Of a stretch of 64,000 bases of DNA, positions 14,262-19,465 are shown one piece after another. Every line of letters starts with the position of its first letter. Position 1 is the first letter of the stretch. Below the pieces are notes generated by a model. The model was not told the DNA's origin and did no database searches. It saw only the letters and a program-made list of their open reading frames with translations. This DNA comes from an uncultured Sphingorhabdus sp. GTDB lineage: Bacteria; Pseudomonadota; Alphaproteobacteria; Sphingomonadales; Sphingomonadaceae. Where the stretch lies: the NCBI GenBank assembly GCA_937873665.1, contig CALMYW010000393.1, positions 186,001 through 250,000 on the forward strand, read 5' to 3'. Both the position numbers and the translations under genes were made by a program.

Positions 14262-15440
14262 ATGGCTGACCCTACCACTACGCGCGCGCCCACCGGAGCG
14301 ACAGGCGTATTGGTTTTGGCCAGTGGAGAGGTTATCTGGGGCAGGGGCTTTGGCGCGGAAGGCAGCGCCGTTGGCGAAGTCTGCTTCAACACCGCGATGA
14401 CAGGCTATCAGGAAGTGATGACCGACCCCAGCTATGCCGGGCAGATCATCAACTTCACCTTTCCGCATATCGGCAATGTCGGCACGAACCCTGAAGATAT
14501 AGAGGCGACCAACCCGCATGCGCTGGGCGCCATCGTGCGGCAGGATGTCTCCAACCCATCCAATTTCCGCGCAACCCAGCATTTCCGCGACTGGATGGCG
14601 GTCAATGGCCGGATCGGGCTTTCGGGCATCGATACCCGCGCGCTGACCCGCCTGATCCGCCTGAAAGGCGCGCCCAATGCGGTGATTGCGCATAGCGCGA
14701 ATGGGATATTCGATATTCCCGCCTTGTTGGCGCAGGCAAAGGCCTGGCCGGGGTTGGAGGGAATGGACCTCGCCAAGGATGTGACGACGCTGCAAAGCTA
14801 TGGCTGGGATGACGGGCTTTGGACGCTGGGGCAGGGCTATGCCGCCAAAGCTGATAAAATTGACACCAATGCAGCCAAGCGGCCAAAAGTCGTCGCAATT
14901 GATTATGGTATAAAACGCAATATATTGCGGAACTTGGTTGATACTGGTTGTGAAGTAACCGTCGTTCCGGCCACGGCGAGCTTTGAAGAGATCATGGCGC
15001 ACCGGCCCGATGGTCTGTTCCTGTCGAACGGCCCCGGCGATCCGGCGGCGACGGGGGTGTATTCGGTGCCGGTGATCAAGGCGTGGCTCGAAACAAAGAA
15101 GCCGCTGTTCGGCATCTGCCTTGGCCACCAGATGCTCGCGCTGGCGGTGGGCGCAAAGACCGAGAAGATGCATCAAGGCCATCGCGGCGCGAACCATCCG
15201 GTGAAGCGGCTTTCCGACGGCGCGGTCGAGATTACCAGCATGAACCACGGCTTTGCGGTCGATGCCGACACGCTGCCCGCCAACGCCCGCGCAACGCACA
15301 CCAGCCTGTTCGACGGCAGCAATTGCGGTTTTGAACTCACCGACCAGCCCGCCTTCAGCGTGCAATACCACCCCGAAGCGAGCCCCGGCCCGCAGGACAG
15401 CCACTATCTCTTCGAGAAGTTTGCGGGGATGATGGGATGA
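14262..15440 (+). CDS. carA: Carbamoyl-phosphate synthase small (glutaminase) subunit
   Basis: CarA hydrolyses glutamine and delivers ammonia to CarB for carbamoyl phosphate, feeding arginine and pyrimidine synthesis. Length is 392 residues. The N-terminal CarA-specific domain has GYQEVMTDPSYAGQII and GIDTRALTR. The class I amidotransferase domain has FLSNGPGDP, the nucleophile motif GICLGHQMLALAVGA and the catalytic HPE in QYHPEASPGP. The stop overlaps the next start (ATGA at 15437-15440). Normally carB follows; here two small genes intervene. Confidence 0.96.
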   Translation: MADPTTTRAPTGATGVLVLASGEVIWGRGFGAEGSAVGEVCFNTAMTGYQEVMTDPSYAGQIINFTFPHIGNVGTNPEDIEATNPHALGAIVRQDVSNPSNFRATQHFRDWMAVNGRIGLSGIDTRALTRLIRLKGAPNAVIAHSANGIFDIPALLAQAKAWPGLEGMDLAKDVTTLQSYGWDDGLWTLGQGYAAKADKIDTNAAKRPKVVAIDYGIKRNILRNLVDTGCEVTVVPATASFEEIMAHRPDGLFLSNGPGDPAATGVYSVPVIKAWLETKKPLFGICLGHQMLALAVGAKTEKMHQGHRGANHPVKRLSDGAVEITSMNHGFAVDADTLPANARATHTSLFDGSNCGFELTDQPAFSVQYHPEASPGPQDSHYLFEKFAGMMG

Positions 15441-15805
15441 AAATACCAGGCTTCGAAAGCGCCGCAGGCATGACAAAGTCAGTGGCCACCAGTAGCGCAT
15501 TAAATCCAATTCTCACTCTGTCGGCAATTTGTTCACCCATAGCTTTAGCTATCGCTGCCTTTTCTGGTCAGTGGAATAACCTGCTATTGGTTGGACTAGC
15601 CGCAGTCCCCCCTGCAGTAGCTATATTTCAGATTCTGCTTTTCACTTTTTTTGATCGTGACCGTCTGCAAAGCGAGCGTCATGTTGAGACCAAAATGGTT
15701 TTGAATCAAATGAATAATCAAATTGGTGATAAAAGCGGCACAGTGACCATTGTTGACCAGAAGTCGATTAATAATCCCTCTCTGGAAGGTATTGGTGATG
15801 TATAA
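15437..15805 (+). CDS. Small two-helix membrane protein inserted in carAB
   Basis: A 122-residue protein of unknown function. Two hydrophobic helices are predicted at about 25-42 (ILTLSAICSPIALAIAAF) and 49-72 (LLLVGLAAVPPAVAIFQILL), followed by a charged DRDRLQSERH segment and a hydrophilic cytoplasmic tail. The ATG overlaps the carA stop; an alternative ATG at 15470 would drop 11 residues. Base composition from about 15480 on is visibly more AT-rich than carA and carB, pointing to acquired DNA. The stop overlaps the next gene by eight bases. I propose a membrane partner or effector for the downstream small protein; no function is demonstrated by sequence. Confidence 0.7.
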   Translation: MKIPGFESAAGMTKSVATSSALNPILTLSAICSPIALAIAAFSGQWNNLLLVGLAAVPPAVAIFQILLFTFFDRDRLQSERHVETKMVLNQMNNQIGDKSGTVTIVDQKSINNPSLEGIGDV

Positions 15806-16112
15806 TACCTATATCTTGAGCTACAGTCCCTTTTCGGAAAAATACACGGTTCCCCAACTAGTTGCATTTATTAAGGCGCACACAGCCACCTATCAGTTTT
15901 ATATAGCAACTGCTGGGACGATGCTTGTCAAAACAGACTGGAAATTGCTTCCCTTGATAGAAAGCTATCATGATTTTTTTGCTGGTGATTCATACGTTAT
16001 CTCGCAAGTTTTTCCAAATTTGATGGGTGGAGGTTTGCCCCAGTATGCGTGGGATTGGATAAACGCACCAAACCCTCCCCCACTCTTAGAACAGCTAGAA
16101 CAGCAAAAATAA
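15798..16112 (+). CDS. Small SinR/Cas2-like fold candidate inserted in carAB
   Basis: A 104-residue cytoplasmic protein, start chosen at the ATG inside the upstream gene's end (GATGTATAA). The pattern suggests a beta-alpha-beta-beta-alpha-beta ferredoxin-like fold: YILSYS strand, [11 protein letters not shown] helix, FYIATAG and TMLVKT strands, [12 protein letters not shown] helix, SYVISQVF strand, then WDWIN. The opening strand, the ...LVKT... segment and the closing tryptophans recall the SinR-family/Cas2-like small proteins often seen next to small membrane proteins, but identity is weak and this is inference. AT-rich. Its TAA shares one base with the carB ATG (TAATG). Confidence 0.65.
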
Positions 16113-19100
16113 TGCCCAAACGCACTGACATCCAATCCATCCTCATCATCGGCGCTGGCCCGATCATTATCGGTCAGGCGTGCGAATTTGACTATTCGGG
16201 GACGCAGGCGTGCAAGGCGCTGCGCGAGGAGGGCTATCGCATCATCCTCGTCAATTCCAATCCGGCGACGATCATGACCGATCCGGAAATGGTCGGCGAA
16301 AATGGCTCCACCTATGTCGAGCCGATCACGCCGGAAGTGGTCGCCAAGATCATTGAAAATGAGCGGGCAAAGTACCCCCAAGAAAAAATGGCCGTGCTCC
16401 CCACAATGGGCGGGCAGACCGCGCTGAACACCGCGCTGGCGCTGGAGGCCAATGGCACGCTGGCGAAATATGATGTCGAAATGATCGGTGCAACCGCCGA
16501 AGCGATCGACAAGGCCGAAGACCGGATCAAATTCCGCAACGCAATGGACAAGATCGGCCTCGAATCCGCGCGCTCGGGCATCGCCCATACGCTGGAAGAG
16601 GCGTTGACCGTGCTCGAGCGCACTGGCCTGCCCGCCATCATCCGCCCCAGCTTCACAATGGGCGGCACCGGCGGCGGGATTGCCTATAATCGCGACGAAT
16701 TCATCCAGATCGTCACCGGCGGGCTTGATGCCAGCCCGACGACCGAGGTGCTGATCGAGGAATCGCTGCTCGGTTGGAAAGAATATGAGATGGAGGTTGT
16801 CCGCGATAAAAAGGACAATGCCATCATCATCTGTTCGATCGAAAATGTCGATCCGATGGGTGTGCATACCGGCGATTCGATCACCGTCGCGCCCGCGCTG
16901 ACGCTGACTGACAAGGAATATCAGATCATGCGCAACGCGAGCATCGCGACGTTGCGCGAAATCGGAGTCGAAACAGGCGGTTCGAACGTACAGTTCGCAG
17001 TCAATCCGAAGGATGGCCGCCTGATCGTGATCGAAATGAACCCGCGCGTGTCGCGGTCTTCGGCGCTGGCATCGAAGGCCACCGGCTTCCCGATTGCCAA
17101 GGTCGCGGCCAAGCTCGCGGTCGGCTATACGCTCGACGAAATTGACAATGACATCACCGGTGCGACGCCGGCGTCGTTCGAGCCGACGATCGACTATGTC
17201 GTCACCAAAATCCCGCGTTTCGCCTTTGAAAAGTTCAAGGGTTCGGAACCTTTGCTGTCGACCGCGATGAAATCGGTCGGTGAGGTGATGGCGATTGGCC
17301 GCAACATCCATGAATCGATGCAAAAGGCGCTGCGCGGTCTTGAAACCGGGCTGTCGGGCTTCAACTATGTCGATGAGTTGAAAGGCGCGCCCAAGGACGA
17401 GCTGGCAGCTGCACTGACTCGCGCGACGCCTGACCGTTTGCTGGTTGCGGCGCAGGCGCTGCGCGAAGGCATGTCGGTATCCGAGGTGCACCAATATTCG
17501 AAATTCGATCCCTGGTTCCTCGAACGTATGGCAGAGATCGTTGTGGCGGAAGAGGAAGTGAAAACCAACGGTATTCCGCAGGATGCCGAGGGGATGCGCC
17601 GCCTGAAAGCCATGGGTTTTTCGGACAAACGCCTCGCTTTCCTCGCGCTCGAATCCGCCCATGTCCGCCCGGGCATGGAATCGGCCATCCGGCGCGGTTC
17701 GGGCCTGATCCGCGAGGCCATTGTCGCTATGACCGGCGGGATTACCGAGGCCGAAGTGCGCAAGGCGCGCCATAAGCTGGGCGTCCGCCCGGTGTTCAAG
17801 CGCATTGATACTTGTGCGGCGGAATTTGAGGCGAAAACGCCTTATATGTACTCCACCTATGAGGCCCCGACCTTTGGCGAGCCCGAATGCGAGGCGCAAC
17901 CCAGCGACCGCGAGAAGGTGGTCATCTTGGGTGGCGGTCCGAACCGGATCGGGCAGGGGATCGAGTTCGACTATTGCTGTGTCCACGCATGCTTCGCTCT
18001 GGAAGAGGCGGGCTATGAAACAATCATGGTCAACTGCAACCCGGAAACGGTTTCCACCGACTATGACACCAGCGACCGGCTCTATTTCGAGCCGCTGACC
18101 GCCGAAGATGTCCTCGAAATCCTGCATGTCGAGCAGCAAAATGGCAAGCTGAAGGGCGTGATCGTGCAGTTTGGCGGGCAGACCCCGCTCAATCTGGCCA
18201 AGGCGCTGGAAGATGCAGGCATCCCGATTCTCGGCACATCGCCCGACGCGATTGACCTGGCCGAAGACCGGGAGCGTTTTGCTGCGCTGATCAATAAGCT
18301 GAAGCTCAAACAGCCCGAAAATGGCATTGCGCGCAGCCGTGAGGAAGCGATCAAGGTCGCTGAAACCATCGGCTATCCGGTGCTGATGCGGCCTTCTTAC
18401 GTCCTTGGCGGCCGCGCGATGGAAATTGTCGATACTCAGGCGCAGCTGGAAAATTACATCGAAACCGCAGTCCGCGTATCAGGCGACAGCCCCGTGCTGA
18501 TCGACCGGTATTTACGCGATGCAGTAGAGGTCGATGTCGATTGTGTTGCCGATGGCGATGACGTCGTGGTGGCGGGCATATTGCAACATATCGAGGAAGC
18601 TGGCGTCCATTCGGGCGATAGTGCCTGCACTCTGCCGCCCTATAATCTGCCCGAGGTAATCATCGCCGAAATCCGCCGTCAAGCGGAGGTTCTGGCGCGT
18701 GCGCTGAAGGTCAAAGGCCTGATGAACGCGCAGTTCGCGGTAAAAGATGGGCTGGTCTATCTGATCGAAGTCAACCCGCGCGCTTCACGGACCGTGCCCT
18801 TTGTCGCCAAGGCGATCGGCGCGCCGATTGCCAAAATTGCGGCGCGGGTGATGGCTGGCGAGAAACTCAAGGATCTTCCCGAAATCAACCTCGATATCGA
18901 TTATATCGCGGTCAAGGAGGCCGTTTTCCCGTTCAACCGCTTCCCCGGCGTCGACCCCGTGCTTTCGCCAGAAATGAAATCGACCGGCGAAGTGATGGGT
19001 ATTGACAAGGATTTTGCGATGGCCTTTGCCAAGGCGCAACTGGGTGCCGGCATGACATTGCCGCAGTCGGGCAAGCTGTTCGTTTCAGTGAAAGACAGCG

Positions 19101-19465
19101 ACAAGCCGCATATCGTGCCTGCCGTTTCCAAGCTTATCGAGATGGGCTTCACCGCTTGCGCCACAGGTGGGACCGCCGACTATCTGCAAGGGCAGGGGAT
19201 CGCCGTCGAACGCGTCAACAAGGTGGCGCAGGGCCGCCCGCATATTGTCGACAAGATAATCGACGGCGAAATCGCTCTGGTGTTCAACACCACAGAGGGC
19301 TGGCAGAGCCTGAAAGACAGCGAAGACATCCGCCGTTCGGCGCTGGTCAACAAGGTGAGTTACTTCACCACCGCCAGTGCTTCGCTGGCGGCTGCGGAAG
19401 CCATCGAGGCCCTGAAAGCGAGAAAACTTGAAGTTTGCACGCTTCAGGACTATCATAAGCGGTAA
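16112..19465 (+). CDS. carB: Carbamoyl-phosphate synthase large subunit
   Basis: CarB (1117 residues) makes carbamoyl phosphate from bicarbonate, ammonia and two ATP. It has two homologous ATP-grasp halves, each beginning with an [21 protein letters not shown] or [18 protein letters not shown] motif, and each with a metal-binding [20 protein letters not shown] or [18 protein letters not shown] segment. The C-terminal MGS-like allosteric domain ends in [12 protein letters not shown]. The start at 16112 matches the family N-terminus [10 protein letters not shown]; it overlaps the stop of the inserted small gene by one base, so carB expression now depends on translation through the cassette or on its own initiation. 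Confidence 0.97.

Follow-up and report, generated by a model that had tools for sequence, protein, structure and literature searches.

An insertion hotspot between carA and carB in Sphingomonadales and a phage- and plasmid-type two-gene module within it

Introduction

An open reading frame (ORF) between carA and carB, the genes for the small and large subunits of carbamoyl-phosphate synthase, has been described in Pseudomonas aeruginosa and Xanthomonas citri; the two ORFs are reported to be unrelated, that of X. citri being 444 bp long with a one-base overlap with carA (PMC4619228). The locus analysed here, in a 64,000-nucleotide stretch of DNA from an uncultured Sphingorhabdus sp. (the window), resembles these operons in having same-strand coding sequence between carA and carB, but it has two ORFs, which overlap both neighbours. 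Furthermore, the earlier examples are single gammaproteobacterial cases, whereas we describe an order-wide hotspot, with unrelated inserts in near relatives, junction statistics with controls, and a phage-type module. Spacers between carA and carB are also known in Neisseria. Our search for literature on a carAB hotspot in Sphingomonadales returned carA-orf-carB reports and no hotspot report, which is weak evidence for novelty since the scope was mostly literature outside subscription.

The usual explanations for hotspots of gene exchange invoke integrases, tRNAs or the context of an island. The locus shares with defence islands and integration hotspots the presence of variable genes between conserved flanks, and one relative of its module lies beside an Abi gene. 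It differs from them in that the window site has neither a recombinase gene nor repeats, and also in that the inserts are mostly up to 1.8 kb long and mostly joined in coupled form inside an essential operon, the window insert having no promoter-like site above chance level.

The product of the first inserted gene, orf1, matches phrog_27377, a phage protein family without a stated function; what sets orf1 of the window apart from that family is its constant partner, orf2, and its place within an essential operon. The nearest structural match of orf2 is BPSL1038, which belongs to a Cas2/VapD-like nuclease sub-family with the active-site motif D11(X20)SST (PMC10491678); this motif is missing from window orf2. 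As a pair, the two genes recall GhoT/GhoS, a two-helix membrane protein with a small protein, although the helices of orf1 are predicted ones. The toxins GhoT and OrtT are membrane proteins with two helices, and ghoT mRNA is the cleavage target of GhoS (PMC4344625). The locus presents an essential two-subunit enzyme operon with a changing set of small genes and junctions mostly in coupled form, and it offers a testable case for the expression and keeping of foreign genes without promoter or recombinase.

Results

Two AT-rich genes overlap each other and both car genes

The insert of the window consists of two genes on the strand of carA and carB:

14262..15440, plus strand: carA, small subunit of carbamoyl-phosphate synthase (Pfam CPSase_sm_chain and GATase), stop codon TGA
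15437..15440, plus strand: ATGA junction of carA and orf1, 4-nt overlap; orf1 start without a Shine-Dalgarno-like motif upstream
15437..15805, plus strand: orf1, 122 aa, two predicted membrane-length helices, relative of phrog_27377
15798..15805, plus strand: overlap of orf1 and orf2, 8 nt; Shine-Dalgarno-like motif upstream of orf2
15798..16112, plus strand: orf2, 104 aa, start ATG, small ferredoxin-fold protein
16110..16114, plus strand: TAATG junction of orf2 and carB, 1-nt overlap; carB without a Shine-Dalgarno-like motif upstream
16112..19465, plus strand: carB, large subunit of carbamoyl-phosphate synthase (Pfam CPSase_L domains and MGS)

The overlaps of 4, 8 and 1 nt agree with those claimed at carA/orf1, orf1/orf2 and orf2/carB in a preliminary description of the locus. 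A Shine-Dalgarno-like motif is present for orf2 and carA, and none was seen when it was looked for at the orf1 and carB starts. A downstream ATG at 15470 is a possible alternative start of orf1, but the relatives P0002 and P0003 retain the upstream N-terminus. The preliminary description had also called the cassette AT-rich against its neighbours, which the computed composition confirmed: GC was 43% in the insert versus 59-61% in carA and carB. By gene, GC and GC3 were 0.439 and 0.390 (orf1) and 0.416 and 0.419 (orf2), compared with 0.606 and 0.733 (carA) and 0.587 and 0.724 (carB), and the codon index, taken against neighbouring genes, was 0.44 and 0.46 for orf1 and orf2 versus 0.69 and 0.73 for carA and carB. 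A scan for promoters and terminators gave no more sites than chance would. A search of 15200-16400 for repeats of at least 12 nt, direct or inverted, found none. No recombinase gene is present at the insert, which orf1 and orf2 fill, neither with a recombinase match.

The carA-carB gap is enlarged across Sphingomonadales

We measured the carA-carB gap in 80 genomes drawn evenly from Sphingomonadales. It was measurable in 75; in the remaining five, a match was lacking, the contig was split or the genes were not among the matches listed. The estimate takes in the stop codon and any extra C-terminal carA residues. The gap was at most 60 bp in 35 genomes, 61-150 bp in 7 and above 151 bp in 33, the largest being 4759 bp. 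From the same draw, pheS-pheT and adjacent sucC-sucD served as controls, and the cut was placed at 151 bp because this is the largest pheS-pheT distance and hence the control maximum. Gaps above 151 bp occurred in 33/75 carA-carB pairs, 0/76 pheS-pheT pairs and 0/58 sucC-sucD pairs (Fisher's exact test, 1e-12 versus pheS-pheT and 2e-10 versus sucC-sucD), and gaps above 300 bp in 30/75, 0/76 and 0/58, respectively. pheS was found in 78 of the 80 genomes, and 76 pairs were measured after G045 and G081, with no pheT match on the same contig, had been dropped. The sucC-sucD distance never exceeded 28 bp in the 58 measured pairs; this control leaves out 21 genomes with the genes on different contigs or at least 13 kb apart and is therefore valid for adjacent pairs only. 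Judged by these distances, the carA-carB junction of Sphingomonadales is an order-wide insertion hotspot. In one genome (G005, contig C429, 6827-11584), some 4.8 kb separate carA from carB, both genes being on one strand.

Among 96 Alphaproteobacteria genomes in a class-level draw, 56 had carA and carB within 5 kb on one contig, and the gap exceeded 150 bp in 14 of these 56; insertions therefore also occur in other Alphaproteobacteria, but more rarely. Two of the genomes with such a gap, G001 and G008, were also in the Sphingomonadales draw.

Two locus sets, both biased towards relatives of the window, were used to study the junctions themselves. In the best 80 of 593 loci by closeness to the window carA, the gap was measurable in 76, ranging from -1 to about 1480 bp, and four loci with a missing flank were skipped. 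In the genus of Sphingorhabdus contaminans, carA-carB flanks were matched in 41 of 45 genomes and 38 gaps were measured: 3 of at most 4 bp, 17 of 104-109 bp and 18 above 150 bp with assorted genes. Pooling the 76 loci, the 38 genus loci and the window, minus 4 duplicates, gave 111 junctions, with 12 of at most 20 bp, 25 of 21-150 bp and 74 above 150 bp, which we call occupied gaps.

Inserts differ between near relatives

The preliminary description had named plain adjacent carAB in relatives and an insertion in this lineage only as the outcome that would support its claim. The spacing comparison gave a different picture, that of a lineage-wide hotspot: only the 3 of 38 genus genomes have directly adjacent genes, and most have another insert or a short spacer. 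It had also asked whether close relatives carry the same two genes; they do not, and none of the listed matches in the 45 genus genomes covers the window cassette DNA. The three closest relatives of the window, L124, L125 and L123, have 95.2, 93.3 and 92.5% flank identity over 600 nt, and no insert similarity was found in any of the 6 pairs formed by the window and these three loci (blastp at 1e-3 on plus-strand ORFs; blastn at 1e-5). Thus, between the window and L124, flanks of 95.2% identity enclose insert sequences without detectable similarity.

Across the 73 occupied junctions with both flanks, an insert was shared in 2/3 pairs at flank identities of at least 95%, in 15/27 at 90-95%, in 29/101 at 85-90% and in 35/696 at 80-85%, and therefore near relatives often do have a common insert. 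Ten of the 15 sharing pairs at 90-95% fall within a Sphingobium set with an RraB gene first in the gap. This gene, of the RraB (regulator of RNase E) cluster, stands first in the gap of the Sphingobium-like genomes L018, L020, L024, L025, L028 and L029, with the same overlap with carA, while the second gene behind it varies between species; the L025 member matches PF06877.

In an all-against-all comparison, the 80 gap ORFs, some of which are probably not genes, formed 12 families of at least two members and 31 singletons; 68 of the 80 were at least 100 aa long. A family of ten includes two proteins matching PF06877 (RraB), and other representatives match PF20385 (DUF6680), PF14015 (DUF4231), with an additional sub-threshold SLATT_1 match, and PF13783 (DUF4177). 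Of ten representatives scanned, three remained without any match at 0.05 and two gave sub-threshold matches only; a PADLOC scan of five gap ORFs of other loci gave no match.

The spacers of 104-109 bp occur in 17/38 genus loci, e.g. L132, L135, L145 and L152. Translated by eye, those of L145 and L152 correspond to both ends of the DUF4177 protein of L139 with the middle missing, and part of this spacer class is probably the remnant of a decayed DUF4177-type cassette.

A second copy of the carB start passed a threshold of 18/24 in 7 of the 74 occupied gaps; the one in L151 looks accidental, and a recognisable copy (18-24 of 24 nt) is present in six, L007, L032, L065, L066, L157 and L160. In these lineages, something seems to have inserted at the 5' end of carB and duplicated it. 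Duplication of the carB start was rejected as a general insertion mechanism, since it concerns 7/74 gaps only and none is found in the window. L169 (7301-7357) also has a second copy of the first carB codons in its insert, and in several gaps with a duplicated start the next ORF looks like the reverse strand of a different gene with GC-rich ends, by impression one for a DUF559-type endonuclease.

Inserts are mostly joined to the car genes in coupled form

In 58/74 occupied gaps, the carA stop overlaps by 4 nt with the start of an ORF of 50 aa or longer, versus 13.2 expected from dinucleotide shuffles of the same gaps. At the other end, where the count has no shuffle control, an ORF of at least 50 aa ended -5 to +4 nt from the carB start in 52/74, 27 of these by a 1-nt overlap. 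Both a coupled first and a coupled last ORF were found in 40/74, while 16/74 lacked the former and 22/74 the latter. Insert GC was below flank GC in 68/74 (mean 0.54 versus 0.62). The gap of L125 holds a minus-strand ORF, and the ORFs of some gaps seem, by impression, to be antisense of another gene.

By its overlaps, the window pair has the junction anatomy of these coupled junctions. A Shine-Dalgarno-like motif was found at 8/44 carB starts with a 1-nt overlap and at 16/67 without; the motif is about as rare at both kinds of start, and its lack is therefore no proof of coupling. Translational coupling itself at the window is what we infer from the junction anatomy.

orf1 and orf2 form a rare module with copies in phage-like settings and on a plasmid

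In the structure model of orf1 (mean pLDDT 64), the predicted helices span residues 22-42 and 48-72 and are followed by a conserved D[RP]D.L[QR][ST]E motif and then a further helix; L77 and E80 are invariant in 34 sequences. The match to the phrog_27377 profile (8.2e-10) aligns residues 14-115 with 14-113 of 134. orf1 also matched the PADLOC 2TM effector PDLC00697 weakly (0.0036, 14.9 bits), and none of four relatives scanned (P0005, L092, L083 and L091) matched that profile at 0.05. In orf2, only G40 and G78 are nearly invariant besides M1, and no conserved catalytic residue is apparent; the window protein lacks both an SST and any Asp upstream of residue 47, so that the D11(X20)SST motif is absent. 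Matches of orf2 to PDB gelsolin and of its profile to Csy1 (E about 0.05) were treated as chance, as were hits to ArlJ and a dioxygenase.

For orf2, a single relative (94% identity) came out of the protein database; for orf1 there were three by single search and 26 by profile, including the window's nearest, among 7995 candidates scored; module homologues are therefore rare. In 396 Sphingomonadales genomes the phrog_27377 family occurred at nine places in 8 genomes, and inspection left six true copies in five genomes (L083, L084, L085, L086, L087 and L091). The other places, L088-L090, matched only weakly (E 1e-4 to 7e-4); an orf2-type ORF was not seen behind them, and they were not counted. 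A further copy, L081, is the carAB gap of Sphingobium limneticum (L018) and was found separately. Across the phylum, the family was present in 2/398 genomes. A class draw of 289 Alphaproteobacteria genomes gave no hit to the orf1 family profile, a search run without a positive control whose emptiness proves nothing alone, and 50,697 phage records gave no match to the window protein or its L092 relative.

An orf2-type ORF directly follows orf1 in all 12 readable copies, window included, although pairwise orf2 identity falls to 14%. With leave-one-out profiles, each of 13 orf2 sequences (the twelve and P0001) was recovered from a set of 1939 in first or second rank, with E values of 5.7e-5 to 9.2e-25. 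Where the target came second, the better match (1e-32 to 1e-35) is probably the L081 protein in its L018 copy, left among the decoys. orf1-orf2 is a rare and apparently undescribed two-gene module.

Six of the twelve copies lie in carAB (window, L081/L018, L083, L084, L086 and L087); in L087 the module is followed by a further insert that begins with a carB start copy and then by full carB. The other six lie elsewhere: L161 (with L085 in it), L162 (with L091 in it), L092, L082, L167 and L168. In L162, a phage tail-type gene lies at a distance of about 1 kb from the module; in L161, an IS605-type gene and part of a phage integrase gene are found no more than about 5 kb away. The L092 copy is on a viral contig and follows a gene resembling a phage repressor, and that of L167 lies between a methylase gene and phage terminase/portal genes. 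By this gene company, four of the six settings outside carAB are phage-like. The L082 copy is on the Acinetobacter johnsonii plasmid pXBB1-6, directly behind an Abi family gene matching PD-T4-5 (1.1e-14), and the L168 copy (616-1377) follows an ORF that by eye is transposase-like, with orf1 split over two frames and orf2 open.

In the orf1 tree, the window protein groups with two metagenome proteins and is joined next by the L162 prophage copy (100/99), which by this placement is the closest placed relative of the window module. L081, L084 and L086 belong to a separate carAB-containing clade (99/99), and L087 is on a long branch of unsure placement. The well-supported branches force at least 2 changes of the carAB label, by gains or losses, and the label clustered no more than in shuffles (134/500 as low).

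Discussion

The most probable account, which we hold with reasonable though not high confidence, is that the carA-carB junction is a gene-capture hotspot and that the window cassette is a phage/plasmid-type two-gene module, read through from carA and defence- or toxin-antitoxin-like. Transcription of the insert would ride on that of carA, as the chance-level promoter-like sites suggest. Ribosomes would terminate and reinitiate at each of the three overlaps (ATGA, 8 nt and TAATG) and in this way move from carA through orf1 and orf2 into carB. Inserts are most likely exchanged by homologous recombination via the conserved carA and carB flanks; no recombinase gene or repeats are present at the window insert. 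Owing to the gene company and anatomy of the module, it is most likely a defence or toxin-antitoxin-like pair, with orf1 as a putative membrane effector and orf2 as its controlling partner.

Other readings concern how the insert came to be there. In one, inserts land everywhere and only those that keep carB translated survive, so that coupling is a filter without retention advantage or special capture site, and the cassette may be nearly neutral. This fits the many short or empty junctions (37/111 at most 150 bp), the opposite-strand insert of L125, and the resemblance, seen by eye in L145 and L152 versus L139, of part of the 104-109 bp spacers to a decayed DUF4177-type gene. It sits less well with the lack of comparable insertions at pheS-pheT and adjacent sucC-sucD and with the mostly ordinary gene length of the gap ORFs, and we regard it as possible but clearly less probable than capture at a hotspot. 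It is highly improbable that the two genes belonged to the car operon from the start, perhaps as regulators of carbamoyl-phosphate synthase, and that relatives have lost them. The tight overlaps at both ends and the six Sphingomonadales copies in carAB, window included, would suit such an origin, but the copies in carAB do not form one clade, and other copies are found in phage-like settings and on a plasmid. This reading was rejected as largely refuted by the absence of a DNA match in 45 genus genomes (41 with flanks), the unrelated inserts in the three nearest relatives and the foreign composition; the same evidence bears out the claim of the preliminary description that the cassette is acquired, as do the mobile copies.

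For the function of the pair, two more specific proposals were weighed against the general defence or toxin-antitoxin-like reading. Superinfection exclusion of temperate phages, in which orf1 would alter the inner membrane to stop DNA entry and orf2 would modulate it without self-toxicity, is in keeping with copies near repressor-like, tail-type and packaging genes, and lysogenic-conversion genes are usually found at such phage positions. One copy, however, lies on a plasmid beside an Abi gene, and we think this proposal unlikely. We give somewhat less credence still to a type V-like toxin-antitoxin acting as GhoT/GhoS, in which orf1 would be a membrane-lytic toxin of two helices and orf2 an RNase antitoxin cutting the toxin mRNA. 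The overlapping pair of a predicted two-helix membrane protein and a small ferredoxin-fold protein speaks for it, and GhoS has a ferredoxin fold. However, the ghoS-ghoT gene order is the reverse of orf1-orf2, GhoT is shorter than orf1, orf2 has no apparent conserved catalytic residue, and profile searches of PDB sequences found no sequence relation to orf1/orf2. GhoS was not among the matches listed for orf2 in sequence and structure searches, an absence that does not exclude a relation.

Returning to capture at the hotspot, carB seems to be initiated only when the reading frame upstream is intact; nonsense mutations or frameshifts in a decaying insert would then lower carB, and in-frame removal would not. 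The preliminary description had proposed such dependence as a retention trick, which is possible and compatible with the junction statistics. Against it are the clean empty junctions (12/111) and the minus-strand insert in L125, and survival only of inserts that do not block carB would leave the same junction pattern. More tentatively, and with less confidence than in the hotspot itself, the junction might be a recombinase-free translational docking site, where in-frame arrivals would be expressed from an essential promoter, shielded from nonsense decay as carB would need read-through of the cassette, and which would be reused for phage-derived defence modules; orf1-orf2 would then be a new system of a two-helix membrane effector and a degenerate Cas2-fold partner.

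The carA-carB gap is a simple address for mining small phage-derived, possibly anti-phage genes. SLATT domains are defence-associated effectors, and the gap of L032, a Novosphingobium MAG, has at -3 to the carA stop an ORF for a DUF4231/SLATT-like membrane protein (PF14015, 3.9e-15). Proteins of about 200-275 aa sharing, by eye, a PA[SA]DR[VI]V segment occur in the gaps of L001, L022, L055, L066, L123, L129 and L157; that of L001 had no match in Pfam or PADLOC. On the plasmid locus L082 (1874-3674), the Abi gene and orf1-orf2 are a possible three-gene defence unit.
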